Of a stretch of 64,000 nt of DNA, positions 26,939 to 64,000 are shown piece by piece. Both the position numbers and the translations under genes were made by a program. The first letter of the stretch is position 1. Every line of letters begins with the position of its first letter. The DNA lies in contig NZ_JACXAJ010000002.1 of assembly GCF_014773225.1 (NCBI RefSeq), forward strand, positions 124,001 to 188,000, in the 5' to 3' direction. Source of the DNA: Pontibacter aquaedesilientis (lineage in GTDB: Bacteria > Bacteroidota > Bacteroidia > Cytophagales > Hymenobacteraceae). The notes below the pieces were generated by a model, which had not been told where the DNA came from, did not search any database, and worked only from the letters and a program-made list of their open reading frames with translations.

Positions 26939-28210
26939 ATGCATACTTCCTTTCGACTGAAAGTGCTTTTCCCGGGGTTTATGTCGGTGCTACTCGCTGC
27001 GGCAGCCTGTAAGTCTCCGCAACAAGGGGTAAACGCCGCCGAAGCGCAAGCCCAACAGCCGCATACAGCCGAGGCGCACAGCCAAGCCATTGTGACCGGC
27101 GCAGACCAGACCGCGGCATACCTGCCTTACCTCAGAGGCAAGCGGGTGGGCATGGTGGTGAACCCGACTTCTGTTATCGGAAGAACGCTAAGCGTGGATA
27201 GCCTGCAAGCCTTAGGGGTTAACATTGTCAAGGTATTTGGCCCGGAGCACGGTTTCCGGGGAGATGCCAGCGCCGGTGTGAAGGTAGACGACAGCGTGGA
27301 CCCAAAAACAGGTATACAGGTGGTGTCGCTATACGGCAAGCGCAACAAGCCTACCCAAGAAGACCTGGCCGATATCGATCTGATGATCTTCGATATTCAG
27401 GATGTGGGTGCCCGTTTCTATACCTATACCATCACCCTGCATCGTGTGATGGAGGCCTGTGCTGAAAACGGCATTGAGCTGATGGTGCTGGACCGTCCGA
27501 ACCCGAACGGGTTTTTGGTGGACGGCCCGATTCTGGAGCCGGAGTTGAAGTCAGGTATAGGCATGAACCCGATCCCGATTTCACACGGCCTGACAGTGGG
27601 CGAGTTTGCCCAGATGGTGAACGGAGAGGGCTGGCTGGCCAACGGCATACAGTGCAAGCTCAACATCGTGAAGGTGATGAACTATACCCACGACATGCCT
27701 TATACCTTGCCAGTAGCGCCTTCGCCTAACCTCAACACACAACAATCCATTCTGCTATACCCCTCCATCTGTCTCTTCGAAGGCACCATCATCAGTCAGG
27801 GCAGAGGCACCTACTTCCCGTTCACGGTGCTAGGCAACCCAGACCTGAAAGACAAATATGCATTCAACTTCACGCCGAAGGGCATCAATGGGATGAGCGA
27901 GACGCCGTTGCACCAGGACCAGGCCTGCTACGGATTGGATCTGAGAGAATTCGACACGCAGGTTTTCCGGAACACTGGGAAGCTCAACCTGAGCTGGCTG
28001 ATGGAGCTGTACAAGGCATACCCGGAGAAGGAAAAGTTCTTCGACTTCAAGCAAAGCAACCAGATCGGCAACTTCGACAAGTTGGCCGGTACTAAAAAAC
28101 TGAAAGAGCAGATCATAGCCGGAGCCACGGAGGAAGAGATTCGCCAAAGCTGGGAGCCAGGTCTGAGCCAATACAAGCAGAAACGCGAGAAGTACCTGAT
28201 CTATCCATGA
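26939..28210 (+). CDS. Exo-beta-N-acetylmuramidase, NamZ-like (DUF1343)
   Basis: 423 residues. The N-terminus is a lipoprotein signal ending LAAAAC, so the enzyme is anchored outside the cytoplasm. The DUF1343 core has GKRVGMVVNPTSVIGR, the strongly conserved VKVFGPEHGFRGDASAG, DLMIFDIQDVGARFYTYT and LDRPNPNG. The Bacillus subtilis member NamZ removes terminal MurNAc from the non-reducing end of peptidoglycan fragments. Here the gene opens a cluster with SusC/D, amidases, MurQ and a hexosaminidase, which fits that activity well. The exact substrate is inferred from family and context. It is alone in its transcription unit, preceded by a 360-bp gap holding a terminator and an operator-like repeat. 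Confidence 0.88.
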   Translation: MHTSFRLKVLFPGFMSVLLAAAACKSPQQGVNAAEAQAQQPHTAEAHSQAIVTGADQTAAYLPYLRGKRVGMVVNPTSVIGRTLSVDSLQALGVNIVKVFGPEHGFRGDASAGVKVDDSVDPKTGIQVVSLYGKRNKPTQEDLADIDLMIFDIQDVGARFYTYTITLHRVMEACAENGIELMVLDRPNPNGFLVDGPILEPELKSGIGMNPIPISHGLTVGEFAQMVNGEGWLANGIQCKLNIVKVMNYTHDMPYTLPVAPSPNLNTQQSILLYPSICLFEGTIISQGRGTYFPFTVLGNPDLKDKYAFNFTPKGINGMSETPLHQDQACYGLDLREFDTQVFRNTGKLNLSWLMELYKAYPEKEKFFDFKQSNQIGNFDKLAGTKKLKEQIIAGATEEEIRQSWEPGLSQYKQKREKYLIYP

Positions 28211-28806
28211 GGCCAGGGTTGAGCGGGATGGTAAAATAGCAAGAAACCGCCAAAGCTCTGAAGAAATAGATGGGCTGCATGCATAATATGTTATGGGCTA
28301 AGCGGTTACTCGATGCGGTTGACAACTTATATTTTGATAGCGCTGCGTTGCTTTCTAACTGTTTGAATTAATTTGCCTGATTTTGCAGGTTTTGTAAATG
28401 ATTGGACCTTAGGCAGGGTAGTGTAAATGCAGGTTTAAAAGCCATTAAAGCATGTTTGGTGCTATAATCTGTTCAATTAAGTTAAATTTTAAACTATTTA
28501 TAAAATAAATTAAATTTATTATGCGTGTTTTTGCGGTTGTTCGTATAAAGAACACTTGCAGATTTGATCTCTTTTAATCAAAATCATTGCAATAACCTGT
28601 GTGCTGTTCGGGATTTTTACTAGCTTTAATGTAAGTTTAATATATTCCGAAATTCAAGTGAATCAATTTGGCAGGCTGAATTGCACTTTGCGAATGCTGT
28701 TTGCATAAGTGCCTGGCCGCTGGATTGCGAGGAATGAATGCTATGTTTCACCAAATAACCTATAATCAATCTACCCACCATAATCTTAACCATTAGCTAC
28801 GCTGTT
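28211..28806. other. Intergenic region upstream of susC-like gene, 596 bp
   Basis: No coding gene. It is AT-rich (especially 28480-28640) and holds the operator-like element at 28522-28560. It should contain the promoter of the SusC/SusD/DUF4397 operon and a long 5' leader; no unique -7 box was picked. Confidence 0.45.
28522..28560. promoter_or_regulatory. Putative shared operator, copy 2 (upstream of susC-like gene)
   Basis: TGCGTGTTTTTGC (28522-28534) is followed by AAAGAACACTTGCA (28547-28560). The halves form an imperfect inverted repeat (GTGTTTTT against AAAGAACAC). The left half is identical over 13 bases to 36776-36788. Confidence 0.45.
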
Positions 28807-31800
28807 ATGATGAAAAAATTACAATGTTACTTATGGGGAATGTGTTTTCTCCTGTTTCACTTTACAGTCAATGCGCAGAGCACGACTGTGACCGGCACGG
28901 TAACTGCCGCCTCCGACAACTCGGCCTTACCCGGGGTTTCTGTTGTAGTAAAAGGGACTACCCGAGGAACGGCCACCGGTGTGGATGGAGCCTACACCAT
29001 TTCTGCAACACCCACTGATGTACTGGTTTTCAGATTTATTGGCATGCAGACAGTGGAACGAACTGTCGGTACGAACACTGCAATCAATATAGCGCTGAAG
29101 GCCGACTCCAAAAACCTGAATGAAGTGGTGGTAACCGCCCTTGGTATCAAGCAGGAGAAGAAAGCCCTTGGCTATGCCGTAACAGAGGTTAAAGGTGCTA
29201 CCATTGCCCAGACCCAACGCGAGAACTTCGTGAACGGCCTGGCTGGTCGTGTGGCGGGTGTGGAAGTGAATGCTTCTTCTGGCCTGCCTGGTTCATCTTC
29301 TTCTATCGTGATCCGTGGCATCAGCTCCCTGAGTGGTAGCAACCAGCCACTGTTCGTGGTAGATGGTTTGCCGATCAGCAACAACACAACTTCTACCGGG
29401 GTGTTTGCTTCTTCTATCGGCGGCGGTTCCCGCTCTTTCGAAAACAGAGGCGTTGACTTCACAAACCGTGCAGCCGACATCAACCCAGAGGATATCGAAA
29501 GCATCACGGTTCTGAAAGGCCCTGAAGCCGCGGCACTTTATGGTATCGAGGCAGCATCCGGTGCTATCGTAATCACTACGAAGCGTGGTCAGGCCGGCAA
29601 AGCCCGTATCAACTACAGCAACAGCTTCCGTATGGACCGCATCGTGCGCTACCCTGAAATTCAGCAGAAGTACGACAGAGGTGCCAATGGCTATACCATT
29701 GAAGGGGACGAGAACCTGGCCTATTTTGGAGCGCCATTCCCGTCTGAAGTTCAGTTTTACGACAACGTGAAGAATTTCTTCCAGGACGCCTTCACTCAGA
29801 AACACAACTTGTCCTTTACAGGAGGAAACGAGTCCGCTCAGTACCGTATCTCCGGTTCCTATACCGATGCCGAGGGCTTTATCCCGAATACAGGACTGGA
29901 AAAACTGACGCTTTCTTCGGCTATTACAGCCAAGCTGAATAAGTTCCTTTCCACAGATGTGACGTTCGACTATACCCGTTCTGATAACGACCAGGCTTTT
30001 AGAGGTGCTGGTGGTCCTTTGTTGCAACTACTTCGTTGGCCTTCTAATGACGATGCCAGCGTATACCTGACGCCAAGCGGCAACAGAAGAGATTTCGGGG
30101 CCTATTCTATTGCCATAGAAAACCCATTCTTCAATGTGAACAAAAACATCTTCAACTCGCTTACTGACCGCTACAGACTGAACACAAGTCTGACTGCTGA
30201 TGTAACGGATTGGATGAAGCTTGTAGGGCAGGCTGGTATTGATTACTATACTGAGAAAAACACGATCGTGCGTCATCCGGAATCCAATGCAGGCCGTTCA
30301 TTCGGCGGTATTTTCGATCAGGCCGTGATCACGAACCGTAACCTCACATTCCAGTACTACGCGCAATTTACGGCACCAACGTTTTTCAACGACAAGTTGC
30401 GCACAGACCTGAAATTGGGTAGCACAGTATACGACTGGAATACCTTCAGCTCAGCAGCTTCTGGTGAGCAGTTCATGGCGCCAGACTTGTACTCGATCAA
30501 CAACACGACGCTAACTACGCAGCGTGCCTACAACAACCTGACGCAGCGCCGCCTGGTAGGTGCCTGGGGTAGCTTCAATGCCAGCTACAACGACATGCTA
30601 TACCTGACGTTGACGGGTCGTAACGACTGGACTTCTACACTTCCGGTGCAGAACAACTCTTTCTTCTACCCATCTGCCGCCATGAGCTTTGTCTTCACGG
30701 AGCTGGAGCCATTCCAGGGAATCAGAGAAGTGCTTTCTTTCGGTAAACTGAGAGGCTCTATCGCTCAGGTAGGTAAAGACGCCAGACCATACAGCCTGCG
30801 TCCGTTCTACGAGTCGGCACAGACAACGGGTGGTGGCTTCCGTTACGGTTTCACGGGTCCAAGCCTGAACCTGCGTCCTGAAATGACCACCTCTTACGAG
30901 TTCGGTACAGAGTTGAAGTTCTTTAACGATCGTTTGGGTATCGATGCGACTTACTTCAAAAAGAAGTCTGTTGACCAGATCGTGCAAAACCTGCGTCTGA
31001 GCTATGCGACAGGCTTTATCCTGATGACCTTCAATGCCGGTGAGATGGAAAACTCAGGTATAGAACTTCAACTGAACGGTACGCCAATCCAGAACAACGA
31101 CTTTACCTGGGATGTGCTGATGAACTACACCAAGAACAACAGCAAGCTAACCAAGTTGCCTGGCGACGTGCAGGAGTTCTACAACTCTGACACCTGGTTG
31201 TATGGCAACGTGCGCGTAGGTTCACGTGTAGATGGCCCGTTGACAACTTTCACCGGGTATGACTACCAGCGCAACGACAACGGCGACGTGCTGATCAACC
31301 CATCTACTGGTTTGCCAATGCTGAATACCAGCGAGTGGAAAATAGTAGGTGACCGTAACCCGGACTTCAACATCGGCCTGACAAACACCTTCACTTACAA
31401 GAACCTGTCGCTTAACTTCCTGCTCGACATCCGCAAAGGTGGCGACGTGTACAACGCGACAGAGCACTTCCTGACTGTAAATGGTCTGAGCAAGCGCACG
31501 CTGAATAGAGAGGAGCCACGCATTGTAACAGGTGTACTGAAGGATGGTCTGGAAAACACGGCCAACCCAACGCATAACAACATTCCAATCGACCTTTACA
31601 GAAACTCAACTTACTGGGCTTCTATCTATCCGCACCACAGCTTCATTGAGAAAGACGTGAACTGGGTACGTCTGCGCGACGTGACCTTGAACTACCGCCT
31701 GCCTGCCAGCGTGATGCAGCGCGCCAAGTTCATCGACGATGTGAGCGTATTTGTGACAGGTACAGACCTGTTCCTGCTTACGAACTACTCAGGTCTTGAC

Positions 31801-31914
31801 CCGGTAGCGAATGGCAACTCTGCTGCAGTGGGTGGTGCCGGTGGTACTGGCCTTGACTATGGTAACTTCCCGTTGCCAAGAGGAATTAACTTTGGAATTA
31901 GAGCAGGATTTTAA
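28807..31914 (+). CDS. SusC/RagA-type TonB-dependent outer-membrane transporter
   Basis: 1035 residues. After a signal peptide ending NAQS there is a carboxypeptidase-regulatory-like domain (about 28-105, TVTGTVTAASDNSALPGVSVVVKGTTRGTATGVDGAYTI). A TonB-box-like NEVVVTALG comes next, then the plug (about 118-235, with IVIRGISSLSGSNQPLFVVDGLPISN and ITVLKGPEAAALYGIEAASGAIVITT). The rest is a 22-strand type barrel ending in LPRGINFGIRAGF. With its SusD partner 11 bp downstream it forms a pedal-bin importer. In this context the cargo is likely a peptidoglycan fragment, but SusC sequences alone do not reveal the ligand. Confidence 0.95.
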   Translation: MMKKLQCYLWGMCFLLFHFTVNAQSTTVTGTVTAASDNSALPGVSVVVKGTTRGTATGVDGAYTISATPTDVLVFRFIGMQTVERTVGTNTAINIALKADSKNLNEVVVTALGIKQEKKALGYAVTEVKGATIAQTQRENFVNGLAGRVAGVEVNASSGLPGSSSSIVIRGISSLSGSNQPLFVVDGLPISNNTTSTGVFASSIGGGSRSFENRGVDFTNRAADINPEDIESITVLKGPEAAALYGIEAASGAIVITTKRGQAGKARINYSNSFRMDRIVRYPEIQQKYDRGANGYTIEGDENLAYFGAPFPSEVQFYDNVKNFFQDAFTQKHNLSFTGGNESAQYRISGSYTDAEGFIPNTGLEKLTLSSAITAKLNKFLSTDVTFDYTRSDNDQAFRGAGGPLLQLLRWPSNDDASVYLTPSGNRRDFGAYSIAIENPFFNVNKNIFNSLTDRYRLNTSLTADVTDWMKLVGQAGIDYYTEKNTIVRHPESNAGRSFGGIFDQAVITNRNLTFQYYAQFTAPTFFNDKLRTDLKLGSTVYDWNTFSSAASGEQFMAPDLYSINNTTLTTQRAYNNLTQRRLVGAWGSFNASYNDMLYLTLTGRNDWTSTLPVQNNSFFYPSAAMSFVFTELEPFQGIREVLSFGKLRGSIAQVGKDARPYSLRPFYESAQTTGGGFRYGFTGPSLNLRPEMTTSYEFGTELKFFNDRLGIDATYFKKKSVDQIVQNLRLSYATGFILMTFNAGEMENSGIELQLNGTPIQNNDFTWDVLMNYTKNNSKLTKLPGDVQEFYNSDTWLYGNVRVGSRVDGPLTTFTGYDYQRNDNGDVLINPSTGLPMLNTSEWKIVGDRNPDFNIGLTNTFTYKNLSLNFLLDIRKGGDVYNATEHFLTVNGLSKRTLNREEPRIVTGVLKDGLENTANPTHNNIPIDLYRNSTYWASIYPHHSFIEKDVNWVRLRDVTLNYRLPASVMQRAKFIDDVSVFVTGTDLFLLTNYSGLDPVANGNSAAVGGAGGTGLDYGNFPLPRGINFGIRAGF

Positions 31915-31925: not shown

Positions 31926-33515
31926 ATGAGAAAGATAGTTTTTGCTTCTCTTATAGCGGCCAGCGTGTTTTCGGCAACTGGCTGTAAAGATTACCTCGAT
32001 GTAAACACAAACCCGAACGGTCCGGATGCCTTGTTGCAGCCGGAGCTGTTCCTCCCTCAGATACAGTCTGAAATGGCGGTAGCCGTGCAGTGGGACGGTC
32101 GTTTTGCCGGTCAGTATGTGCAGAACTGGGCTTCTACAGCTGCCAACAATGCACTAGACCTACATGCCAACCCGCTGTCTGACTCTTATGCACAGATGTG
32201 GAGAGCCGTGTACTGGAGCATGGGTTACAACCTGTCCGACATGATCGAGAGCGGTGCGCGCAGTAAGAAATACGACTTCGTGGGCGTGGGCCAGATCATG
32301 CGTGCTTATGGCTGGCAGAACCTGACCGACTATCATGGTCCGGTTATCATGAAAGAAGCCTTTGATTCTGACAAGCGAGTGTTCAACTTTGACGACCAGC
32401 AGGAGGTGTATCCAGAGATCAAGCGTCTGCTGGAAGAAGGCATCAAAAGCCTGGAAAGAACGGATGGTCTTGATGCTGCCAACTCTGGCCTGAGCAAAGG
32501 CGACCTGATCTACGCCGGTAACAGAGATAAATGGAAGAAATTCGCTAATGGTTTGCTGGCGATCAACGCCCACCGTCTGACGAACAAGGCTTCTTACGAC
32601 CCGAACAAAGTGATCGAGTATGTGGATAAATCGCTTGCCAGCAACGCCGACAATGCCATGATCCGTTTCGAAGGGGCCGTAAGCTCTAACACGAACTTCT
32701 ACGGACCGATTCGTAACAACATCGCTTCTTATCGTCAGACTAACTACATCGTAGGCTTGCTGGATGGCACCAACCCTGCGTTGAGAGACGAGAACCTGGC
32801 AGCGGCTGACCCTATATTCACAGGCCAGCACCTGAAAGACCCGCGTTTGACGGCCATGCTGGCACCATCGCCAGACGGTAAATACAGAGGGGTTCGTTCC
32901 GGTGCAGGTATAGTTGGTATTCCAACTGCCGAAATTCCGAACAACCTGTGGGGTGCCGTAGGTACTTCGACAGCACAGGTTCGTCAGATCTACATCTTTG
33001 GCAACGCAGCCCTATTCCCGCTGATGACTTACTCGCAGCTGCAGTTTATTAAAGCAGAGGCTGCCTGGATTGCCGGTAAGAAAGATCTGGCACTGGAGGC
33101 CTACAGAAAAGGCGTAACAGCCCATATCGACTTTGCACGCACCTATGCACCTGATCCGGCTGTATACGACCAGCGCAAGGCGACGTACCTGGCCAGCGAA
33201 TCCATGATGCCGACCACGGCTGCCGGGCTGACGCTTTCTAAGATCATGCTGCAGAAGTATATCGCAACATGGGGCTGGGGCTTTATGGATACCTGGTCTG
33301 ATATGAGAAGATACCACTACAACAAGGATGGCGAAGTGTACACAGGCTTTACCTTGCCAGAGGAGTTGCACGTGTCTAACCAGGGTGTGCCGGCTTACAG
33401 GGCGCGTCCGAGATACAACTCAGAATACATGTGGAATCAGGAAGCTCTCCGCGCCATGGGAGGTTTTGATGAGAACTACCACACTTATGAAACCTGGTTT
33501 AGCAAAAAACAATAA
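31926..33515 (+). CDS. SusD/RagB-family surface lipoprotein
   Basis: 529 residues with the lipobox SATGC (Cys 20) followed by KDYLDVNTNPNGPDAL, the hallmark N-terminus of the SusD-like group. The helical core contains WRAVYWSMGYNLSDMIE and IKAEAAWIAGKKDLALEAYRKGV (TPR-like). It acts as the lid and ligand-binding partner of the SusC barrel encoded just upstream. A DUF4397 lipoprotein gene follows 12 bp later in the same operon. Confidence 0.95.
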   Translation: MRKIVFASLIAASVFSATGCKDYLDVNTNPNGPDALLQPELFLPQIQSEMAVAVQWDGRFAGQYVQNWASTAANNALDLHANPLSDSYAQMWRAVYWSMGYNLSDMIESGARSKKYDFVGVGQIMRAYGWQNLTDYHGPVIMKEAFDSDKRVFNFDDQQEVYPEIKRLLEEGIKSLERTDGLDAANSGLSKGDLIYAGNRDKWKKFANGLLAINAHRLTNKASYDPNKVIEYVDKSLASNADNAMIRFEGAVSSNTNFYGPIRNNIASYRQTNYIVGLLDGTNPALRDENLAAADPIFTGQHLKDPRLTAMLAPSPDGKYRGVRSGAGIVGIPTAEIPNNLWGAVGTSTAQVRQIYIFGNAALFPLMTYSQLQFIKAEAAWIAGKKDLALEAYRKGVTAHIDFARTYAPDPAVYDQRKATYLASESMMPTTAAGLTLSKIMLQKYIATWGWGFMDTWSDMRRYHYNKDGEVYTGFTLPEELHVSNQGVPAYRARPRYNSEYMWNQEALRAMGGFDENYHTYETWFSKKQ

Positions 33516-33527: not shown

Positions 33528-34331
33528 ATGAAAAAGATATTTAAAAGAGCATTAGTGTTTTTAGCGGCAGGCTTCATGCTGGGAGCCTGCGAAAAGAATG
33601 CCATTCCTGAAGTGACAGAGCCGGTAGCGGAAGGCGCTTTTGTTAAATTTTTCTTCCACGTAGACGGTGCCCCGCGCACTAACTTCTTCCTGGACAGCAA
33701 AAAGGTGACAGGCGTAGCGCCGACGACATCTGGTATTGTGCTGGGCAATTTGTATGGATCTGCTTACCCTAGCAATGCCTATGCGCTGCTTCCTGCAGGA
33801 AATTACAAGATGAGCGCTGTGGACACTGTGGCCGGTAAAGGTACTGCCGAGACTCTGGCTAGTACTTCTGTGAGCCTTGCCAGCAACAAGCACTACTCTG
33901 CTTACCTGGTAGGGACAACAACGAGTTACGAAGTGTTTTTGGCTGAAGATAAGCTGCCTCCTGCCGACTATACCAAGATCTGGTGGAGATTCATGAACAC
34001 GATGGCGAACATGCCATTTGCTGTGGATGTGTATGCTGTGCGTGCCGCAATTGCCGCAACTGAAACCAAGCCAGCTGAGCCAATGGAAATCATTGAGCTG
34101 GGTAAGAACCTGGGTTTCAAGCAGCATGGCTCTTACGTGGAGCTGAAGCCGGGTAGCTATACCTTCAAGGTATACCCAACAGGCACAGCCTATGATCCTG
34201 CCACAACGAAGCCTTATATCCAGAACGCGATCGTACTCGGAACACTTGGCCGTGTGTATACCACCCAGATCAGAGGTGCTTATGCCGAAACGCCTAAGAC
34301 CAGTCAGATTGACTATTGGAGAGACAGATAA
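33528..34331 (+). CDS. DUF4397 domain lipoprotein, third gene of the SusC/D operon
   Basis: 267 residues. The lipoprotein signal ends LGAC. The sequence after it is beta-rich, with the DUF4397 pattern VKFFFHVDGAPRTNFFLDSKKVTG... LPAGNYKMSAVDT. A second similar segment follows (FAVDVYAVRA... VELKPGSYTFKVYPTGT). Surface glycan-binding proteins usually occupy this place in SusC/D operons, so a binding role is plausible. No catalytic motif is visible. A strong terminator ends the operon. Confidence 0.8.
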   Translation: MKKIFKRALVFLAAGFMLGACEKNAIPEVTEPVAEGAFVKFFFHVDGAPRTNFFLDSKKVTGVAPTTSGIVLGNLYGSAYPSNAYALLPAGNYKMSAVDTVAGKGTAETLASTSVSLASNKHYSAYLVGTTTSYEVFLAEDKLPPADYTKIWWRFMNTMANMPFAVDVYAVRAAIAATETKPAEPMEIIELGKNLGFKQHGSYVELKPGSYTFKVYPTGTAYDPATTKPYIQNAIVLGTLGRVYTTQIRGAYAETPKTSQIDYWRDR

Positions 34332-34336
34332 TGCTG

Positions 34337-34370
34337 ATTGGCCGGGGCCTCCGGTTCCGGCCAATTTTTT
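34337..34370 (+). terminator. Terminator of the SusC/D operon
   Basis: The stem ATTGGCCGG / CCGGCCAAT has an 11-nt loop and is followed by TTTTT. Confidence 0.93.
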
Positions 34371-34537: not shown

Positions 34538-36079
34538 ATGATCAGAAACTTTACCCTATTGCTTGCCTTGCTGCTCGGTTCTGCCAACCTGTTTGCGCAA
34601 CAGACAAAGCAACCCCCGAAACGCGAGTTCAGGGGTGTGTGGATTGCCACCGTGCAAAACATCGACTGGCCCTCCAAACCCAAAGCTGGTGTAGACTCGC
34701 GGGAGCAAATGCAGGAGTTGATCGACATCTTCGACTCCCACCAAAAGACAGGTATAAATGCCATTATGCTGCAGGTGCGCCCATCGGCAGATGCTTTTTA
34801 CGCCAAAGGGCGTGAGCCGTGGAGCATGTTCCTGACCGGCAAGCAGGGCACTCTGCCACAGCCGTTTTACGATCCGCTGGAGTTCGCTATCCAAGAAGCC
34901 CACAAACGCGGCATGGAACTGCATGCTTGGATAAACCCTTACCGCGCCTCCACCAGCCTCGTGGATTCGCTGGTTAGCCCGGAGCACATCTCACGCGTGC
35001 AACCGGACTGGTTCTTTACCTACGGCGACAAAAAATACTTTAACCCCGGACTGCCGGAGGTTCGCCACTACCTCGTGGATGTGATCATGGACGTGGTGCG
35101 CAACTACGACATCGACGGCATCCATTTCGACGACTACTTTTACCCCTACCCGGGCAAAGCGGCGCTGCCTGATTCCATCACGTACCAGTTGCACACGCAG
35201 GGTTTTAAAAACATAGAAGACTGGCGCCGCCATAATGTGGACCAGTTGATCAAAGATCTTTCTGAATCTATCAAGCAGGAGAAGAAACATGTGAAGTTCG
35301 GCATTAGCCCCTTCGGTATCTGGCGCAACAAGTCCCAGGACCCTGAGGGATCTGAAAGCAATGGCCTGTCAGGTTATAGCGCCCTGTATGCCGATGCCCG
35401 CAAGTGGGTGCAGGAGGGTTGGGTGGACTACATCAATCCCCAGCTGTACTTTCCGTTTGGCTATGCTCCGGCTCCATACGAAAAACTGCTGGACTGGTGG
35501 GCGGCCAACGCCAATGGCAAACATGTGTACATAGGCCAGGGCGCCTACCGGGCCATGGAAGACCGCGAGGGCTGGCGCGACCGTCAGCAATTGCCGAACC
35601 AGGTGCGCTATCTCCGCCAAAACCCGAGGGTGCAGGGCAGTGTGTACTTCAGCTCCCGCTCCCTGACCAACAACCTGGCCGGCTTCCGCGACTCTTTGCA
35701 GCACGACCTATACCGCTACCCGGCGCTGCAACCTGTGATGCCCTGGATGGGCACGGCAAAACCTTCGAAGCCCATGCAGCTGCGCGAAGACAAGTTTTTG
35801 TTCTTCTTTCCCAGATGGCGCAAATCGATCATGAAATGGGAATACCCGGATCAGGAAGAGGATGTGTACGGTTATGTGATTTATCGCTTTGATGAGAATG
35901 AACCCATTAACCTGGAGCATGCTCAGAACATCATCAAGATCAGTTTTGATGACTCCCTGCATACCTTCCATGACGAAACGGCTGAACGTGGCAAGACCTA
36001 CCAGTATGTGGTGACTTCTATCGACAGATTGAAGAACGAGAGCGTTCCCTCTAATGTGTTCAGGAAGAAGTTGTTGTAA
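34538..36079 (+). CDS. GHL10-family glycoside hydrolase (DUF187, DigH/YddW-like)
   Basis: 513 residues with a Sec signal (MIRNFTLLLALLLGSANLFAQ). The TIM-barrel GHL10 domain opens with REFRGVWIATVQNIDWPSKP and contains GINAIMLQVRPSADAFY, LHAWINPYRAS, DGIHFDDYFYPYP and WVDYINPQLYFPFG; an Ig/FN3-like end follows (about 420-513). The Escherichia coli relative DigH (YddW) cleaves glycan strands stripped of peptides by amidases. Here the very next gene, 10 bp away, encodes an amidase, which fits that pairing closely. The peptidoglycan role is inferred from family and neighbours. Confidence 0.88.
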   Translation: MIRNFTLLLALLLGSANLFAQQTKQPPKREFRGVWIATVQNIDWPSKPKAGVDSREQMQELIDIFDSHQKTGINAIMLQVRPSADAFYAKGREPWSMFLTGKQGTLPQPFYDPLEFAIQEAHKRGMELHAWINPYRASTSLVDSLVSPEHISRVQPDWFFTYGDKKYFNPGLPEVRHYLVDVIMDVVRNYDIDGIHFDDYFYPYPGKAALPDSITYQLHTQGFKNIEDWRRHNVDQLIKDLSESIKQEKKHVKFGISPFGIWRNKSQDPEGSESNGLSGYSALYADARKWVQEGWVDYINPQLYFPFGYAPAPYEKLLDWWAANANGKHVYIGQGAYRAMEDREGWRDRQQLPNQVRYLRQNPRVQGSVYFSSRSLTNNLAGFRDSLQHDLYRYPALQPVMPWMGTAKPSKPMQLREDKFLFFFPRWRKSIMKWEYPDQEEDVYGYVIYRFDENEPINLEHAQNIIKISFDDSLHTFHDETAERGKTYQYVVTSIDRLKNESVPSNVFRKKLL

Positions 36080-36810: not shown

Positions 36811-36996
36811 AATTATTTTGAACTTTAATGAGACATTTCGTATTTTTAACTAAAATAAAGGGACAGTATTCGTTTTGCTCATGCGACTTTGTGCGGTTTT
36901 CTGCGCTAGTTCTCCAAGCAAAGGCCGCATGGGCAGGATGAGTACGTTACAGGTATAGCCTGATGGGTTCTTTTGTTTTACCAATGCCATAACCAA

Positions 36997-56397: not shown

Positions 56398-56481
56398 CGA
56401 ATTTTTATAACGCGATAAGTGTTTAGTGTATAATGTTTCATCAAGGGCCTTGTGCGAACGATGCTATTTAGAACCAATACT

Positions 56482-57690
56482 ATGATTAAAAATAACCCGC
56501 TTGTGCTGTTGCTTTTACTGGTGCTGTCTTCCTGCGCCGGTATGCAAAGCACACCTTCCGAGTCTACTGTTGCGACCAACACAGCAGTTGCTGCCTCTCC
56601 TGCGCAAACATATATCGATGCCGTGCGCCAGCAGTTTGCTCCTGATAAGCGTGTGGCGCTGTTTGATGTTGAGACTAGTGGCAGTGTGCTGCGCGGCGAA
56701 ACCAACATACCCGAAGCGAAAACCGATCTGCTGAAGCGACTGCAAGCAGCCAATGTGTCGTTTGTGGACAGCATTCAGGTATTGCCGGAAAGCGAACTGG
56801 AAGGCAAAAACTTTGCGATCGTGACGATCTCGGTAGCTAACCTGCGCTCACAGCCAAAGCACTCAGCCGAACTGGCCACACAGGCCACCATGGGTACGCC
56901 GCTACAGGTATGGAAAAAGCAGGACGGCTGGTACCTGGTGCAGACACCTGACCAGTACCTGGCCTGGGTTGATTATGGCGGTATTGCACTGATGGACCAA
57001 GCCGCTTTCACCAATTGGCAGCAAGGCAAAAAGCTCATCTACACCAAGACCTACGGCTTTGCCCATGCCACGCCCGACAGAAAGGCCACCACCGTTTCGG
57101 ATATGGTGTATGGCGATGTGATGGTGCTGAAAAACAAGACGAAAGATTTTTATGAGGTCATGTTCCCGGATGGCCGCACAGGCTATGTGTCTGCTGCTGA
57201 AGCCATGGGCTTTAAAGAATGGGTAGCAAGCCGCAAGCCTAGCGAGGAGAATCTGGTAGCGTCGAGTAAGGAGCTTTTGGGTTTGCCATACCTGTGGGGT
57301 GGCACGTCCGTGAAAGGGATGGACTGCAGTGGTTTCACCAAAACCGTTTTCTTTATGAACGGGCTGGTACTGCCGCGAGACGCTTCGCAGCAAATACATA
57401 TTGGCGAACTGGTAAATACTGATAATGGCTGGGATGACCTGCGTCCGGGTGATCTGCTGTTTTTCGGCGTGCCTGCCAAAGACGGTAAGTCAGAGCGCGT
57501 AGTGCACGTAGGTATGTGGATCGGCGGTGACCAGGAGTTTATCCATTCCGCCGGCCGGGTGCGCATCAACAGCATGAATCCTTCGGCAGCCAACCACGAT
57601 GCCTATGAGCTGGGCCGCTTCCTGCGTGCTAAGCGTGTTTCTCCGGAAGCAACCTTAGTGGATTTGCGTGAAAAGCCGCTTTACGAATAA
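56482..57690 (+). CDS. NlpC/P60 murein peptidase with SH3-like domains, lipoprotein (YkfC-like)
   Basis: 402 residues from MIKNNPLVLLLLLVLSSC, a lipoprotein signal. Two SH3-like regions (about 100-165 and 185-245) precede the NlpC/P60 domain. The Cys-His-His triad is C282 in GMDCSGF, H342 in VVHVGMW and H355 in FIHSAGRV. This layout matches the YkfC group, which cuts the gamma-D-Glu-diaminopimelate bond and frees L-Ala-D-Glu. That dipeptide is the substrate of the epimerase encoded 3 kb upstream, so the genes make a linear path. A terminator follows. Confidence 0.93.
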   Translation: MIKNNPLVLLLLLVLSSCAGMQSTPSESTVATNTAVAASPAQTYIDAVRQQFAPDKRVALFDVETSGSVLRGETNIPEAKTDLLKRLQAANVSFVDSIQVLPESELEGKNFAIVTISVANLRSQPKHSAELATQATMGTPLQVWKKQDGWYLVQTPDQYLAWVDYGGIALMDQAAFTNWQQGKKLIYTKTYGFAHATPDRKATTVSDMVYGDVMVLKNKTKDFYEVMFPDGRTGYVSAAEAMGFKEWVASRKPSEENLVASSKELLGLPYLWGGTSVKGMDCSGFTKTVFFMNGLVLPRDASQQIHIGELVNTDNGWDDLRPGDLLFFGVPAKDGKSERVVHVGMWIGGDQEFIHSAGRVRINSMNPSAANHDAYELGRFLRAKRVSPEATLVDLREKPLYE

Positions 57691-57961: not shown

Positions 57962-59215
57962 ATGAGCGCATTCCTGGCATTGGAAGAAGGATATCTGGAG
58001 AAGCTGAACCACGTGGAGCGGAAGAAGCATCTGCAGAAGATAAAGATCGTGCGCCACCTGTATGTGAAAGGTGCACGCTCCAATGCAGAGATCTGCAATC
58101 GGTTTAGTATCAGTTCGCCAACCTCCATGGCTTTGCTCAACGAACTGCTGGCCGAAGGCCTCGTTGAAAAGCAGGGAAGAGGCGAATCGGTGGGCGGGCG
58201 CAAGCCGGAACTGTATGGGTTGCGCAACAACTCGCTTTTCGTGCTGAGCATCGAAATGGAGAAGTTCAGTACCCGCATGGCCATTTTTGATGGCAACAAC
58301 CACAACATCACAGGTTCCCATACCTTCCCGATACGGCTTTCCAAAAACCTGACTGCAGTGGACGAGCTGCACCACCACGCCAATAGCCTGATCCTCTCAT
58401 CAGGTATAGATACCGACAAACTGATGGGGATTGGCTTGAGTCTGCCGGGGCTTGTATCTTCCAAGGAAGGGGCCAGCTATACCTACCTGTTGACCGGGCA
58501 AAATGAAATGCCTTTGCAGGATTTGCTGGCTCTGAAATTTAACAAACCGGTCTATATCCAGAATGACGTGAAAAGCGCCACACTGGCCGAGTACCGCTTT
58601 GGCGCAGCGCAGGGCAAGCGCGACGTGTTGGTGCTCACACTGGATTGGGGTATTGGCCTGGGCGTTATCACAGACGGAAAGCTGCGCATCGGCACCTCCG
58701 GTTTTGCAGGTGAGTTCGGTCACATTCCTTTCATAGACGACGGCGTGTTGTGCCATTGCGGTAAGCGGGGCTGTTTGGAAACAGTGGCTTCGGGCAGCGC
58801 TTTGGCTCGTATGGCCCGCGAAGGGATGCAGGCTGGGCAGGAAACCTTGCTGAAGGAACTTTCGGGGCAGGAATTGGAGAAAATAGAACCGCAGGCCATT
58901 ATACAGGCTGCCAACGAAGGCGATCAGTTCGCGATCAACATGCTGGCCGAAACAGGGCGTAATCTGGGCAAGGGCATTGCTATGCTGATTCAGCTTTTCA
59001 ACCCGGAGCTGATCATCATTGGCGGCAAAATAGCCGAAGCGCGACAGTACATCACCACCCCGATACAGCAATCCATCAACACCTACTGCATGACGCAGCT
59101 GCGGGAGCGCACCGAGGTCGCACTGTCCCAACTGGGGCAGGAGGCAGGTATACTGGGGCCGGTGGCCACGGTGATGGAGCGCATTTTTGAGCATCGCATT
59201 GAATCAACCAAATAA
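57962..59215 (+). CDS. ROK-family transcriptional regulator (NagC/Mlc-like)
   Basis: 417 residues. An N-terminal winged HTH (about 25-85; LYVKGARSNAEICNRFSISSPTSMALLNELLAEGLVEKQGRGESVGGRKPELYGL) precedes a ROK sugar-binding fold. The zinc signature is intact: EFGHIPFIDDGVLCHCGKRGCLETVASGSAL. NagC, the best known relative, senses GlcNAc 6-phosphate. It starts a run with the NagB-type gene 36 bp downstream, so it probably controls aminosugar catabolism. An AT-rich, promoter-like region lies upstream (57780-57960). Confidence 0.93.
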   Translation: MSAFLALEEGYLEKLNHVERKKHLQKIKIVRHLYVKGARSNAEICNRFSISSPTSMALLNELLAEGLVEKQGRGESVGGRKPELYGLRNNSLFVLSIEMEKFSTRMAIFDGNNHNITGSHTFPIRLSKNLTAVDELHHHANSLILSSGIDTDKLMGIGLSLPGLVSSKEGASYTYLLTGQNEMPLQDLLALKFNKPVYIQNDVKSATLAEYRFGAAQGKRDVLVLTLDWGIGLGVITDGKLRIGTSGFAGEFGHIPFIDDGVLCHCGKRGCLETVASGSALARMAREGMQAGQETLLKELSGQELEKIEPQAIIQAANEGDQFAINMLAETGRNLGKGIAMLIQLFNPELIIIGGKIAEARQYITTPIQQSINTYCMTQLRERTEVALSQLGQEAGILGPVATVMERIFEHRIESTK

Positions 59216-59251: not shown

Positions 59252-61171
59252 ATGGCTCGATTAAATCTTCTGGAAGAAACCCGATTTGAGAAGCTTCCGG
59301 TTACCATTTACCCCGATGAGTTTGTCGCCTCCGTGAAAGTCGCCCAGCGCATTGCGGAGCTGATCAGGTATAAGCAGGGACGAAACGAGAAAGCCGTGCT
59401 GGGTCTTGCCACCGGTGCCACGCCTGTTAAGGTATACGCCGAGCTGGTGCGCCTGCACCGCGAAGAGGGCCTTAGCTTCCGCAACGTCATCACGTTCAAC
59501 CTGGACGAGTACTACCCGATGCAGCCAACGGCGGTGCAGAGCTACGTGACGTTCATGAACGAGAACCTGTTCGATCACATCGACATCGACAAAAATAACG
59601 TGCATATACCGGACGGTACGCTACCGCTCGAAAGAATACATGACTACTGCCTGGAGTATGAGCGCAAAATAGAATCGCTTGGTGGCCTGGATCTTCAGAT
59701 TCTGGGTATCGGCCGTACCGGTCACATCGGTTTCAACGAGCCGGGTTCTGCACCAAACTCCGGTACGCGCCTGGTTACCCTCGACGACCTGACACGCCGC
59801 GATGCCTCCCGCGACTTCGGTGGCAAGGAGAACGTGCCGCGCAAAGCCATCACCATGGGCATCGGCACCATCTTCAAAGCCCGTGAGATCATCCTGATGG
59901 CTTGGAGCGGCAAGAAAGCGCCGATTATCAAAAAAGCAGTGGAAGGGGAGATATCGAGTGATGTGCCGGCTACCTACCTGCAGCTGTCGGACAACGTGGA
60001 GTTTGTGCTGGATGTGGACGCTGCTTCGGAGCTAACCCGCTTCAACACGCCATGGCTGGTGAAGGACTGCGTGTGGGATGAAGCCCTGATCAAGAAAGCG
60101 GTGATCTGGCTGTCGGAGGAGGTGCAAAAGCCGATCCTGAAGCTGACCGAAGAAGACTACAACAACCACGGGATGGCACAGCTGGCCACCGAAAAAGGTC
60201 CGGCTTACGACATCAACATAGATATTTTCAACAAACTGCAGCGCACGATCACCGGCTGGCCTGGTGGCAAGCCGGGAGCCGATGACAGGCAGCGCCCGGA
60301 ACGCGCCGAGCCGGCCCGCAAGCGTGTGGTGATCTTCTCGCCGCACCCGGATGATGATGTGATTTCGATGGGCGGGACTTTTATCCGCCTGGTAGACCAA
60401 GGGCATGACGTGCACGTGGCGTACCAAACGTCGGGCAATACCGCCGTTTGGGACGATGACGTGCTGCGTTACATGGAGTTCGCGATTGACTTCAATAACA
60501 GCATCGGGCAGGAAACCGCTCATTTGGAAGAGATATACGAGAACATGCGCACCTTCCTGGAAGACAAGCAGCCAAATCAGCTCGATTCGCAGGAGATACG
60601 GGATGTGAAAGGCTTTATCCGGAAGAGCGAGGCTATTGCAGGCGCCCGCTACGCTGGTCTGGAAGACGATCACATCCATTTCATGGCGCTGCCTTTCTAC
60701 GAGACCGGTAAAACTGTGAAGAAACCGGTAACGGATATCGACGTGGAGCTCACTATGGAGTTGCTACAGAAAGTGAAGCCGCACCAGGTGTTCGCCGCCG
60801 GCGACTTTGCTGACCCGCACGGCACGCACATTGTATGCTTCAACATTATACTGACTGCCCTGTCGCGACTGCGTGAAACCGAGGAGTGGGCCAAAGATTG
60901 CTGGCTGTGGATGTACCGCGGTGCCTGGCACGAGTTTGCGACGCACGAGATCGAGATGGCCGTGCCGTTGTCGCCGCAGGAAGTGGAACGCAAGCGCAAC
61001 GCCATTTTTAAGCACCAGTCGCAGAAGGACCATCCGGTGTTCCCGGGCGACGACGAGCGTGAGTTCTGGGTGCGTGCTGAGGAGCGCAACCGCGAAACCG
61101 CCAAGAGTTATGACGACCTGGGCCTTGCCAACTACGAGGCCATGGAGGCCTTTGTAAGGTGGAAGTTCTAA
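59252..61171 (+). CDS. Glucosamine 6-phosphate deaminase (NagB-like) fused to a PIG-L deacetylase
   Basis: 639 residues. The NagB-like half (about 1-325) has LGLATGATPVKVYAEL, the FNLDEYYPM motif with catalytic Asp (D85), and GIGRTGHIGFNEPGS. In the last motif the usual Asp before Gly-His is Thr (T156); His158 and Glu163 are kept. After a linker, the PIG-L/LmbE half (about 355-639) shows the zinc motif SPHPDDD (H365, D367, D368) and DPHGTHIV (H523, H526). PIG-L enzymes de-N-acetylate GlcNAc groups. No nagA is present in the window, so this protein could carry out both deacetylation and deamination. Similar fusions are known in Bacteroidota. Confidence 0.92.
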   Translation: MARLNLLEETRFEKLPVTIYPDEFVASVKVAQRIAELIRYKQGRNEKAVLGLATGATPVKVYAELVRLHREEGLSFRNVITFNLDEYYPMQPTAVQSYVTFMNENLFDHIDIDKNNVHIPDGTLPLERIHDYCLEYERKIESLGGLDLQILGIGRTGHIGFNEPGSAPNSGTRLVTLDDLTRRDASRDFGGKENVPRKAITMGIGTIFKAREIILMAWSGKKAPIIKKAVEGEISSDVPATYLQLSDNVEFVLDVDAASELTRFNTPWLVKDCVWDEALIKKAVIWLSEEVQKPILKLTEEDYNNHGMAQLATEKGPAYDINIDIFNKLQRTITGWPGGKPGADDRQRPERAEPARKRVVIFSPHPDDDVISMGGTFIRLVDQGHDVHVAYQTSGNTAVWDDDVLRYMEFAIDFNNSIGQETAHLEEIYENMRTFLEDKQPNQLDSQEIRDVKGFIRKSEAIAGARYAGLEDDHIHFMALPFYETGKTVKKPVTDIDVELTMELLQKVKPHQVFAAGDFADPHGTHIVCFNIILTALSRLRETEEWAKDCWLWMYRGAWHEFATHEIEMAVPLSPQEVERKRNAIFKHQSQKDHPVFPGDDEREFWVRAEERNRETAKSYDDLGLANYEAMEAFVRWKF

Positions 61172-61602: not shown

Positions 61603-62478
61603 ATGAGCAACTCGAAAGTACTGGGTATAGACATCGGAGCCACTAAAATGCACGCAGGCGTGGTGCAGAACGGCAGCATTTTACAGGAAGTGAAGTTCCA
61701 TACCTCGGCGCAGGCATCGCAAGCGCAGATCGTTGCGGAGCTGATTCAAGGTATAGCCCCGCTGGTAGATGCCGAGGTGACAGGTATAGGTATCGGTGTA
61801 CCGGGGCTGGTGGATGAAGCGAAGGGCATGGTGTGCGATGTGCAGAATATACCTGCCTGGAAAGAAGTACACCTGAAGCAGCACCTGGAGGAGCATTTTG
61901 GCATACCGGTATACCTGAGCAACGACGCGAACTCCTTTGCCGCCGGCGAGAAAATATACGGTCAGGGCAAAGCGTTTCGTAACCTGGTCGGCATAACACT
62001 GGGCAGCGGGCTGGGCGCTGGCATCATCATCGACCATAAACTTTACTCCGGAACGCTTTCTAGTGCCGGAGAACTGGGTGGTGTGCCATACCTCGACAAA
62101 ACCATAGAAGACTATTGCAGCGGCAAGTTTTTTGTGGCGGAGTACGGCATGGCGGGTGACGAGCTCTATACCCTGGCGCAACAGGGTCACGCTCCGGCGC
62201 TGGAGGCTTACAAAGTATATGGGCAGCACCTGGGTAGCGCCATCAAAGTGGTGCTATACCTGCTGTCGCCGCAGGCCATTTTCCTGGGCGGCTCCATCAG
62301 CAAGTGCTATCCTTTATTTAAAGAGACGATGCAGCAAAGTCTCGCTGACTTCCCGTTTAAAGCGGTGGCCAGTCAGTTGCATATCGGTGTTTCCGAATTG
62401 GACAATGCGGCCGTATTGGGTGCTGCGGCGCTCTTCGAACTCAAAAACCAACAGAAGCATCAACTACAATCCGCCTAG
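61603..62478 (+). CDS. ROK-family sugar kinase, candidate MurNAc/GlcNAc kinase
   Basis: 291 residues without HTH. The ATP motif DIGATKMHAGVV is at the N-terminus, then the sugar-site NDANSFAAGE and GITLGSGLGAGIIID. The usual ROK zinc signature (CxCGxxGC) is replaced by a short EDYCSGKFF segment after GELGGVPYLD. Such zinc-less ROK kinases occur in Bacteroidota. The genes around it need a cytoplasmic kinase to make MurNAc 6-phosphate for MurQ and GlcNAc 6-phosphate for the NagB fusion. This is the only sugar kinase gene in the locus. The start of the GH20 gene lies 2 bp after its stop codon. Confidence 0.88.
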   Translation: MSNSKVLGIDIGATKMHAGVVQNGSILQEVKFHTSAQASQAQIVAELIQGIAPLVDAEVTGIGIGVPGLVDEAKGMVCDVQNIPAWKEVHLKQHLEEHFGIPVYLSNDANSFAAGEKIYGQGKAFRNLVGITLGSGLGAGIIIDHKLYSGTLSSAGELGGVPYLDKTIEDYCSGKFFVAEYGMAGDELYTLAQQGHAPALEAYKVYGQHLGSAIKVVLYLLSPQAIFLGGSISKCYPLFKETMQQSLADFPFKAVASQLHIGVSELDNAAVLGAAALFELKNQQKHQLQSA

Positions 62479-62480
62479 GT

Positions 62481-64000
62481 ATGGACTTCAGAAAAAAACT
62501 ACTCACCCTTGCCTTCACATTTGCCAGCATGGCAGGTATAGCCGGGCTATCGCCAGCTCAGGCGCAAGTAAAACCGGAGTCGCTGGCGCTGATACCGCAG
62601 CCCGTAAAGCTCACCACCCAAAAAGGGAGCTTCCTGGTGCAGCCGGCTACCAAAATTTATGTAGACCCCAAGAACGAGGACCTGTTGCGGGTAGGCGAGT
62701 TCCTGGCGCAGCACATTGAGCAATCGATTGGCCACAAGCCGGAGTTGCTCCAGAAAAAGCCGAAGAAAAAGGACACGAACCTGATTTACCTGACTCTCGC
62801 TACAGAGAACGATACCCTGGGCTCCGAAGGCTATACCTTGAGCGTGAACCCAAGTCGCATCACACTGGCCGCCAAAAAGGCAAACGGGACTTTTGTAGGT
62901 ATACAAACTGTTCGCCAGTTGCTTCCAGCCAAAAAAACTTCACAGTCGGCGCTTATACCTGCGCTCCAGATCGTGGACAAGCCCCGCTATACCTGGCGCG
63001 GCATGCACCTCGACGTGACCCGGCATTTCTTCCCAGTGGAGTTTGTGAAGCAGTACATCGACTACCTGGCCATGCACAAGATGAACACCTTTCATTGGCA
63101 CCTGACCGATGACCAGGGTTGGCGCATCGAAATAAAGAAGCACCCGAAGCTGACCGAGGTTGGTGCCTGGCGCGACAGCACCCTGATCGGACATTACTGG
63201 GATCTGCCTCAGACCTACAAAAAGCAGCGCCACGGCGGTTACTATACCCAGGAGCAAATAAAAGAAGTGGTGGCGTATGCGCATGACCGGTTTATCAACG
63301 TGGTGCCTGAGATCGAAATGCCAGGCCATGCGCTGGCGGCCCTGACGGCTTATCCGGAGCTGTCGTGTAGCGGAGGACCTCACAAAGTTGAGTCGAAGTG
63401 GGGGATTTTTCCTGACATTTTCTGCGCTGGCAATGAGCAGAGCTTCACTTTTCTGGAAGATGTGCTGACCGAGGTGATGGATCTCTTCCCGAGCAAAATC
63501 ATCCATATTGGCGGCGACGAGGCACCCAAAACCCGCTGGAAGCAATGCCCGAAATGCCAAAAGCGCATCGCCGACCAGGGCCTGAAAGACGAACACGAGC
63601 TGCAGAGTTATTTCATTCAGCGGATTGAGAAATTCATGAACAAGCATGGCCGTACCATCATCGGCTGGGATGAAATCCTGGAAGGCGGCCTGGCGCCCAA
63701 TGCTTACGTCATGTCGTGGCGCGGCACCAAAGGCAGTATAGCCGCCGCCAAGCAAAAGCACTACGTGGTAATGTCTCCCGGTACCCACCTGTACTTCGAC
63801 CATTACCAGGGCGAACGCGACCTGGAGCCAGTTGCCATACATGGTTACAGCACATTGGAAAAGGTATATGGCTTTGAACCAACGCCCGCTGAACTTTCTG
63901 CTGAGGAAAAGAAGTACATTCTGGGAGCACAGGCCAACGTCTGGACCGAGTACATCCCCACAACAGAGCATGTCGAGTACATGGTGTTTCCGCGTATAGC
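62481..64000 (+). CDS. GH20 beta-N-acetylhexosaminidase (3' end outside window)
   Basis: The first 506 residues are visible and the frame is open at the right edge. It has a signal peptide (to about PAQAQ, residue 29) and a GH20b-type N-terminal domain (about 35-165). The catalytic barrel starts at YTWRGMHLDVTRHFFPVEFVKQYIDYLAMHKMNTFHWHLTDDQGWRIEIK. The Asp-Glu catalytic pair is in HIGGDEAPKTRW (D346, E347). It removes terminal GlcNAc or GalNAc by substrate-assisted catalysis. It can supply GlcNAc to the ROK kinase encoded just upstream; the pair is almost certainly one transcript. Confidence 0.95.
   Translation, partial: MDFRKKLLTLAFTFASMAGIAGLSPAQAQVKPESLALIPQPVKLTTQKGSFLVQPATKIYVDPKNEDLLRVGEFLAQHIEQSIGHKPELLQKKPKKKDTNLIYLTLATENDTLGSEGYTLSVNPSRITLAAKKANGTFVGIQTVRQLLPAKKTSQSALIPALQIVDKPRYTWRGMHLDVTRHFFPVEFVKQYIDYLAMHKMNTFHWHLTDDQGWRIEIKKHPKLTEVGAWRDSTLIGHYWDLPQTYKKQRHGGYYTQEQIKEVVAYAHDRFINVVPEIEMPGHALAALTAYPELSCSGGPHKVESKWGIFPDIFCAGNEQSFTFLEDVLTEVMDLFPSKIIHIGGDEAPKTRWKQCPKCQKRIADQGLKDEHELQSYFIQRIEKFMNKHGRTIIGWDEILEGGLAPNAYVMSWRGTKGSIAAAKQKHYVVMSPGTHLYFDHYQGERDLEPVAIHGYSTLEKVYGFEPTPAELSAEEKKYILGAQANVWTEYIPTTEHVEYMVFPRI

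Follow-up and report, generated by a model that had tools for sequence, protein, structure and literature searches.

A SusC/SusD operon inside a peptidoglycan gene block of Pontibacter, a probable locus for the utilisation of wall fragments

We analysed positions 124001-188000 of contig C11 in a Pontibacter genome of 4.12 Mb. This whole 64-kb stretch is called the window, and plain coordinates are counted from its first letter. Most genes across 26939-64826 have a likely role in the breakdown of cell wall or amino sugars (Table 1). Among them, inside a 37-kb block of peptidoglycan (PG) genes that includes an accessory copy of MurQ, lies an operon encoding a SusC transporter, a SusD lipoprotein and a DUF4397 protein. 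A preliminary description of 26939-64000 had listed the genes of a SusC/SusD-based PG utilisation locus, and family profile searches found all of them as intact open reading frames (ORFs). They include enzymes specific for N-acetylmuramic acid (MurNAc) or wall peptides, namely a MurQ above its family cut-off, NamZ, amidases, an NlpC/P60 endopeptidase and a member of the dipeptide epimerase superfamily. Three genes were absent from that list: a phosphoesterase with a pyrroloquinoline quinone (PQQ) propeller, a BioF-like pyridoxal phosphate (PLP) enzyme and a DUF819 gene.

As expected of a SusC/SusD importer, a full-length SusC above the TIGR04056 cut-off is followed by a PF12771-type SusD with a lipobox pattern. 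The gaps between SusC, SusD and DUF4397 measure 11-12 nt, and a strong terminator-like hairpin closes the predicted unit (28 terminator-like sites in the region versus 19.5 in shuffles).

To see how this arrangement is conserved, we searched 100 genomes of the family for SusD, counting homologues at about 49% identity or more. Including the genome under study, 23 had one (in G063 in two pieces). Five relatives (G089, G079, G093, G099 and G069) keep the gene order of the window at 69-97% identity. The order runs NamZ, SusC, SusD, DUF4397, GHL10, amidase, phosphoesterase, MurQ2, symporter, dehydrogenase, DeoR and NagX, and continues with GH3/beta-lactamase, amidase, PBP4, epimerase, BioF, DUF819, NlpC, ROK and NagB, which the compared stretches reach only partly. 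Five others (G055, G067, G049, G071 and G061) have the block without MurQ2; SusC/SusD is still near GH3-beta-lactamase, PBP4, epimerase, NlpC and NagB, in a changed order. Across genomes, SusC/SusD is thus co-located with dedicated degradative genes, as in polysaccharide utilisation loci. We also checked whether the gene set is scattered in close relatives, and the block proved syntenic in Pontibacter. NamZ as the upstream boundary is supported because the preceding GH2-GalK-GalT-symporter block is missing from some relatives, such as G093 and G046. In locus L041 (12204-14773), and by eye in L120, a GH9 gene and a polysaccharide deacetylase gene lie between GHL10 and the amidase; the window (36079-36090) is without both.

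Recurrence beyond the family was assessed in the best 80 of 268 SusD relatives, with 10-kb flanks where the contig allowed. A hidden Markov model (HMM) recognised DUF4397 as the third gene in 79 of these loci, and tblastn queried with the protein of the window did so in 74. Ten PG genes formed a diagnostic set, detected with HMMs built on the window genes, on relatives of these and on AnmK and GH20 seeds, at thresholds that we set (300 bits for GH3-beta-lactamase, 150 for epimerase and 100 for MurQ). GH20, NagB, NagX, the sodium:solute symporter and DeoR were excluded as diagnostic, so loci with NagB only (L166) or NagX only (L130, L131) count as unlinked. A diagnostic gene was present within about 10 kb in 44/80 SusD loci, compared to 2/20 control loci hand-picked among non-orthologous SusD matches, all from Pontibacter (Fisher p 3e-4). 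Within the window's SusD clade this rose to 33/35 (p 2e-10 against the same controls); since the loci are related, both p values are optimistic.

PG-linked loci were found in Hymenobacteraceae (21/23), Flavobacteriaceae (11/11), Cesiribacteraceae (1/1) and Sphingobacteriaceae (10/16, with AnmK within 10 kb in nine and GHL10 in one); in Pedobacter the operon neighbours AnmK. Spirosomataceae plus Cytophagaceae had none (0/9), Gemmatimonadota one of 18, carrying GHL10/NamZ/GH3/NagB, and other groups none (0/2); a PG specificity of the whole SusC-operon family was rejected on these counts. The gene order is changed in Flavobacteriaceae, where MurQ is within 10 kb of SusC in five of the 11 loci. 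It is directly upstream of SusC in L109, L111 and L112, is separated from it by DeoR or more in L117 and L127, and was not seen in the other six. Locus L112 encodes, consecutively on one strand, a major facilitator superfamily (MFS) protein, GH20, MurQ, SusC, SusD, DUF4397, GHL10, symporter, epimerase and NlpC. In the SusD phylogeny, the window falls in a supported set of 22 rows that are all PG-linked, and 34 of the 36 rows in the enclosing set are linked. The PG label needs 8 changes on this tree versus 26.6 in shuffles, a contrast to which the clustering of close relatives contributes anyway.

We next looked at the upstream regions. An operator-like direct repeat, TGCRTGTTTTTGCRGRTTT, has four matches in the window versus 0.03 expected in shuffles, a descriptive figure as the pattern is window-derived. 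Genome-wide, five sites have at most one mismatch, four of them in this locus; allowing two mismatches raises the count to 20, versus 9 for the reversed pattern. We compared seven close relatives (G089, G079, G093, G099, G069, G046 and G038). The site of the MurQ2 unit recurs in all seven and that of NamZ in the six having NamZ; in G038, without NamZ, the corresponding site precedes the replaced SusC, and five of the six others have a weaker SusC site. The weak site at GH3-beta-lactamase has counterparts before the same gene in four relatives, G043, G085, G008 and G091.

A strict TTTTGCRGNTT-core pattern was dropped: it missed the window-type SusC upstream regions of relatives, and therefore a weight matrix was used instead. 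This matrix was trained on eight Pontibacter sites alone and scanned across entire loci, with lengths up to 21.6 kb. Eleven Sphingobacteriaceae loci have DeoR, and in nine of them the top match fell in the interval separating DeoR from a SusC (in L153 the site fronts the second SusC, and in L139 the mechanically called DeoR frame overlaps it). The two misses were L156, with the best match 69 nt before AnmK and the second in the gap, and L161, with a weak second match. These Sphingobacteriaceae matches are the independent part of the motif evidence. The DeoR proteins concerned are 52-66% identical to that of the window, and in Pedobacter the DeoR homologue is divergent from SusC. Among 26 Hymenobacteraceae loci, some of which supplied training sites, a motif score of at least 20 was reached in 8/13 with DeoR versus 0/13 without, but the lower-scoring loci with DeoR (16.6-19.7) are not cleanly separated from those without it, whose highest score was 18.0. 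The SusC/SusD operon is apparently under the same switch as the wall-digesting enzymes. Synteny, re-ordered conservation in other families and the common predicted operator all support the earlier proposal of a single PG-directed locus holding a SusC/SusD importer.

Table 1. Genes and predicted signals of the block, in window coordinates
Feature	Position	Strand	Evidence
Operator-like direct repeat 5' of NamZ	26682..26700	+	
NamZ-family exo-muramidase, predicted lipoprotein (C24)	26939..28210	+	PF07075, PF20732; nearest PDB 4jja, 341 bits; lipobox by pattern
Operator-like direct repeat 5' of SusC, distal	28374..28392	+	
Operator-like direct repeat 5' of SusC, proximal	28522..28540	+	
SusC TonB-linked transporter	28807..31914	+	TIGR04056, 672 bits, over cut-off
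SusD lid lipoprotein (SusD-like_2)	31926..33515	+	PF12771, 165 bits; lipobox C20
DUF4397 lipoprotein, two tandem Ig/transthyretin-like domains	33528..34331	+	
Terminator-like hairpin 3' of DUF4397	34336..34366	+	14 pairs, 8 G-C, T tail
GHL10 wall glycan-cleaving enzyme, predicted exported	34538..36079	+	PF02638, 239 bits; nearest PDB Cwp19, 355 bits
Amidase_2 lipoprotein	36090..36704	+	PF01510, 46 bits; start by lipobox Met
Operator-like direct repeat 5' of phosphoesterase-MurQ2 unit	36776..36794	+	
Exported metallophosphoesterase with PQQ propeller, heads MurQ2 unit	36973..38853	+	PF00149, PF13360
MurQ2, accessory MurNAc-6-phosphate etherase	38904..39716	+	TIGR00274, 331 bits, over cut-off
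Sodium:solute symporter	39946..41472	+	PF00474
FAD/Fe-S 2-hydroxyacid dehydrogenase, putatively for D-lactate	41486..44311	+	PF02913, PF01565, Fe-S; below cut-offs of listed models
DeoR-family regulator	44383..45126	-	PF00455, PF08220
NagX-like transmembrane acyltransferase	45531..46706	-	NF046061, 188 bits (cut-off 480); HGSNAT in PDB
GH3 N-acetylglucosaminidase-type and beta-lactamase-fold fusion	46797..49844	-	PF00933, PF00144
Weak operator-like site between divergent GH3-beta-lactamase and AmpD-like genes	49925..49948	-	Weight matrix 21.0, 5th in window
AmpD-like Amidase_2	50012..50926	+	PF01510, 115 bits; start by eye
S13 (PBP4-type) carboxypeptidase lipoprotein	50951..52306	+	PF02113, 133 bits; lipoprotein by pattern
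L-Ala-D/L-Glu epimerase superfamily	52404..53423	+	Nearest PDB 3iji, 240 bits
BioF-like PLP enzyme	53423..54490	+	TIGR00858, 121 bits, below cut-off
DUF819 membrane protein	55135..56397	+	PF05684, 289 bits
NlpC/P60 endopeptidase lipoprotein, SH3 domains (YkfC-like)	56452..57690	+	PF00877; nearest PDB 3npf 238, 3pvq 231 bits
NagC-like ROK regulator	57962..59215	+	NF047937, 210 bits, below cut-off
NagB-PIG-L fusion	59252..61171	+	NF002557, 1065 bits, over cut-off; single copy in genome
ROK sugar kinase	61603..62478	+	PF00480; below cut-offs of listed sugar-specific models
GH20 hexosaminidase	62481..64826, past window end at 64000	+	PF00728, 406 bits on in-window part
NagP-like MFS, downstream of GH20, beyond window	64912-66210		425 bits (cut-off 625)

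For three genes (GHL10, first amidase and AmpD-like), the start was re-placed by eye at a signal-peptide methionine, and the lipoproteins (SusD, DUF4397, NamZ, first amidase, PBP4 and NlpC) were called by lipobox pattern alone. GHL10 is homologous to Cwp19 over the catalytic domain, and the title of PMC6016235 describes Cwp19 as a novel lytic transglycosylase. The putative D-lactate dehydrogenase is a flavin adenine dinucleotide (FAD)/iron-sulphur (Fe-S) oxidase, for which all listed NCBIfam models stayed below cut-off. NagX is a NagX-like acyltransferase that falls short of its model's cut-off, and PBP4 an S13 carboxypeptidase over the PF02113 cut-off whose TIGR00666 score, 94 bits, is under the required 107.8. 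The dipeptide epimerase is a member of the Ala-Glu/N-acetyl-Glu epimerase superfamily that scores below the equivalog cut-offs. A minus-strand ORF at 62940-63971 was rejected as a gene, as it had no family match and is the antisense frame of GH20. A 187-nt intergenic repeat occurs twice in the locus, at 54527-54713 and 61312-61498 (86% identical).

From the gene families, linkage, recurrence and conserved motif, which were observed directly, we infer the transport, enzymatic and regulatory steps that follow. We consider it fairly probable that the block is a PG-fragment utilisation locus organised like a polysaccharide utilisation locus, with a SusC/SusD importer. PG-derived material is the most likely SusC/SusD cargo; it may enter as muropeptides, wall peptides or denuded glycan, and may derive from external PG or from the cell's own turnover. 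At the cell surface, SusD and the DUF4397 lipoprotein would bind soluble wall fragments that exceed the size limit of porins, and TonB-driven SusC would move them into the periplasm. For SusCD cargo in general, PMC7782687 suggests a ceiling of about 5 kDa, and for the levan system a minimum length of five units in vitro, a range that could accommodate muropeptide dimers and short wall oligomers. In the periplasm, the Cwp19-like GHL10 and NamZ would cleave glycan and the amidases release peptides, which the S13 carboxypeptidase and the YkfC-like NlpC/P60 enzyme would trim, while GH3/GH20 would liberate N-acetylglucosamine (GlcNAc). Candidates for the inner-membrane step are the symporter, the NagP-like MFS protein and DUF819. 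In the cytosol, MurNAc or anhydro-MurNAc would be phosphorylated by kinases encoded elsewhere (AnmK on C1, BadF-type on C18). MurQ2 would then yield GlcNAc-6-phosphate and D-lactate, the latter a possible substrate of the FAD/Fe-S dehydrogenase. The NagB-PIG-L fusion would replace the missing NagA and then deaminate, and the epimerase would handle Ala-Glu. DeoR is the predicted controller of NamZ, SusC-SusD-DUF4397, phosphoesterase-MurQ2 and perhaps GH3-beta-lactamase, via 10-bp direct repeats.

This scheme corrects the preliminary description, which had inferred a complete route in the locus. The full set of kinase, etherase, NagA and NagB was not recognised there. AnmK is encoded at C1:247160, and the other MurQ of the genome follows a BadF/BcrA-type kinase (C18:66401-68138). 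Since both kinases lie outside the block, it seems dependent on kinases encoded elsewhere. Because no NagA scored above cut-off in the genome (best 30 bits versus a cut-off of 226), deacetylation would fall to the PIG-L half of the fusion. This half is a candidate deacetylase, and the fusion a candidate one-protein replacement of NagA plus NagB.

MurQ was found in all 100 family genomes. The MurQ2 type (about 80% identity or more to that of the window) was present in 15, and another type (53-74% identity) in 99, the exception being G008 with the MurQ2 type only; 14 of the 15 MurQ2-type genomes thus carry both. Window-type SusD was linked to MurQ2 in 11 of these 15 genomes, at distances up to about 11 kb. 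Three of the remaining four (G038, G095 and G008) have a different SusC/SusD pair nearby (27-40% identity), and in G091 no pair was seen in 30 kb around MurQ2. G139 has a further SusC/SusD type. Across the class, MurQ had a match in 110 of 119 genomes; from these we hand-picked, not at random, 20 MurQ loci for inspection, three of the top-scoring among them (L222 is a 16-kb contig). SusC or SusD was nearby in 2/20 (L240 and L221), both of other types, and a general placement of MurQ beside SusC/SusD was rejected. The HMM scan alone gave L240 (SusC 204 bits), a 37-bit match in L235 was not counted, and the SusC of L221, cut by the locus edge, was recognised from ORFs plus Pfam. L221 (723-12331), from another family, combines a SusD_RagB-type operon with DUF4623, GHL10, phosphoesterase, GH9, MurQ and symporter, and represents a third importer type in the same setting. 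L240 (2448-12014) holds a run of MFS (AmpG-like by eye), NamZ, FAD/Fe-S dehydrogenase, NagX, BadF-type kinase, MurQ and beta-lactamase-type genes, which resembles the Tannerella cluster discussed below.

These MurQ counts bear on the possibility that the importer recaptures turnover fragments released by the cell itself, with little use of external PG. Such recycling overlaps with utilisation, and the probabilities of the two are not exclusive. The same enzymes serve recycling, the predicted hydrolase lipoproteins have no obvious surface-export signal after the cysteine (by eye), and no endo-acting surface enzyme was recognised in the block. However, the genome has a separate MurQ with an adjoining BadF-type kinase, of the type nearly universal in the family, whereas that of the block is an accessory copy, and the DeoR/ROK-regulated accessory block looks nutritional. 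We regard own-wall recycling as possible, but less likely than not.

It is also conceivable, but rather improbable, that SusC/SusD imports free oligopeptides, from cross-bridges or protein, instead of sugar-bearing muropeptides, and has PG neighbours since both feed amino-acid use. The solved structure nearest to SusC is BT2264 (5fq6_B; 402 bits, the next 173), and the Bt2261-64 structures contain oligopeptide ligands (PMC7782687). A fold search found the DUF4397 protein to resemble the PepT1/PepT2 ectodomain, a likeness that is compatible with other folds and implies no family membership. Conversely, sugar-side enzymes are linked to the importer (MurQ, AnmK, NamZ, GHL10, GH20 and NagB), including the three Flavobacteriaceae loci with MurQ immediately 5' of SusC, and the BT2263 lid was not among the 18 PDB sequences matched by SusD, judged by molecule names (nearest 3fdh, 68 bits). 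That a GlcNAc/chitin-type or other glycan locus sits in the PG block by chance is very improbable: although the GH20, GH3, NagX, NagB and NagP-like genes also suit GlcNAc glycans, some relatives have the GH9 and deacetylase insertion, and SusC-operon relatives without PG genes exist, the arrangement recurs re-ordered in several bacterial families, the gene families identified in the block did not include GH18/GH19, and no role in chitin use is known for MurQ, AnmK, epimerase, NlpC or amidases.

Several observations weigh against PG-fragment utilisation. The block has neither a recognised MurNAc or anhydro-MurNAc kinase (AnmK/BadF) nor a recognised surface endo-muramidase, and the closeness of SusC to BT2264 makes wall peptides or oligopeptides a possible cargo. 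A search for sites comparable to the operator was negative in both DeoR-bearing Flavobacteriaceae loci and upstream of SusC in L109, L112 and L116. Because the window and its close relatives supplied both motif and pattern, matches there are partly circular. The two control loci with PG genes are L187 and L189, and the controls come from one genus. Finally, SusC-SusD-DUF4397 relatives have no nearby diagnostic PG gene in Spirosomataceae/Cytophagaceae (9/9), Gemmatimonadota (17/18, many on short contigs) and Sphingobacteriaceae (6/16). On this evidence, PG is therefore not the cargo of the whole family.

The importer cassette (28807-34331) is variable inside the conserved locus, as seen by comparison with L122, G038, G095 and G008. 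In Pontibacter sp. HSC-14F20, the other block genes are 74-96% identical to those of the window, versus 68% for SusC, 56% for SusD and 38% for DUF4397. In G038, the SusC/SusD slot is filled by a 39%/28% identical pair. This suggests allelic or cassette exchange of the importer within the locus. A bolder reading, which we put forward tentatively and at slightly less than an even chance, is that a SusC/SusD branch is specialised for muropeptides. It would comprise an importer clade with a DUF4397 partner shaped like an animal peptide-transporter ectodomain, a DeoR-type switch common to Hymenobacteraceae and Sphingobacteriaceae, and a cassette swapped for other SusC/SusD types in an otherwise conserved locus.

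As a side observation, the 64 kb contain 38 copies of the word CTATACCTG (extended GCTATACCTGCC) versus 0.26 expected, for example at 26622, 50148, 54168 and 62533, with 5/38 outside genes. An inverted pair forms a hairpin near 26600-26640 (by eye). GGCAGGTATAG was counted 221 times in the genome versus once for the reversed word, 152 times in G038, 3-39 times in seven other Pontibacter and no more than 6 times in any of 32 genomes outside the genus. It resembles HIP1 or uptake-signal sequences and appears to be a genome word of one Pontibacter clade.

How wall fragments pass the outer membrane of Bacteroidota seems unsettled. Two Tannerella studies treat the inner-membrane proteins AmpG and MurT (PMC5388701, PMC7670621); TonB has 0 occurrences in either, and no SusC/SusD step appears in the passages compared, which for PMC5388701 cover part of the text. 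We found no description of a SusC/SusD system for PG in the open-access papers searched, a set without subscription papers or preprints outside PMC. If true, PG import by SusC/SusD would add a cargo class to a large transporter family, account for a diet of dead bacteria in free-living Bacteroidota, and provide a concrete operon, regulator and operator. The tandem-domain DUF4397 partner is a new candidate binding protein.

Like polysaccharide utilisation loci such as Bt1762-63 for levan, the block unites a SusC-SusD pair, an extra lipoprotein, exported glycosidases and transporters. Unlike them, its degradative genes target PG, its regulators are of DeoR/ROK type with no hybrid two-component or extracytoplasmic function (ECF)/anti-sigma gene among the families found, no surface endo-enzyme was recognised, and its cargo is deduced from the gene context. 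BT2261-BT2264, a SusCD system with oligopeptide ligands, provides the nearest solved SusC; the block differs by the DUF4397 third gene and the PG context, and by a SusD whose PDB matches do not include BT2263. The Tannerella forsythia ampG/murTKQ cluster shares MurQ and YbbC with the block, taking YbbC to be NamZ, and differs by its regulator GppX and by having MurK within the cluster. Its operon includes inner-membrane muropeptide/MurNAc transport (PMC5388701). According to PMC6987092, RmNag3 of Rhodothermus marinus is active on acetyl-chitooligosaccharides and no glycoside hydrolase gene adjoins it. RmNag3 is the same GH3 and beta-lactamase fusion as that of the block. An epimerase and NlpC/P60 pair is a feature of the Bacillus ykf murein-peptide genes and of murein-peptide recycling in E. 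coli. The block shares this pair and differs in carrying an outer-membrane importer alongside.

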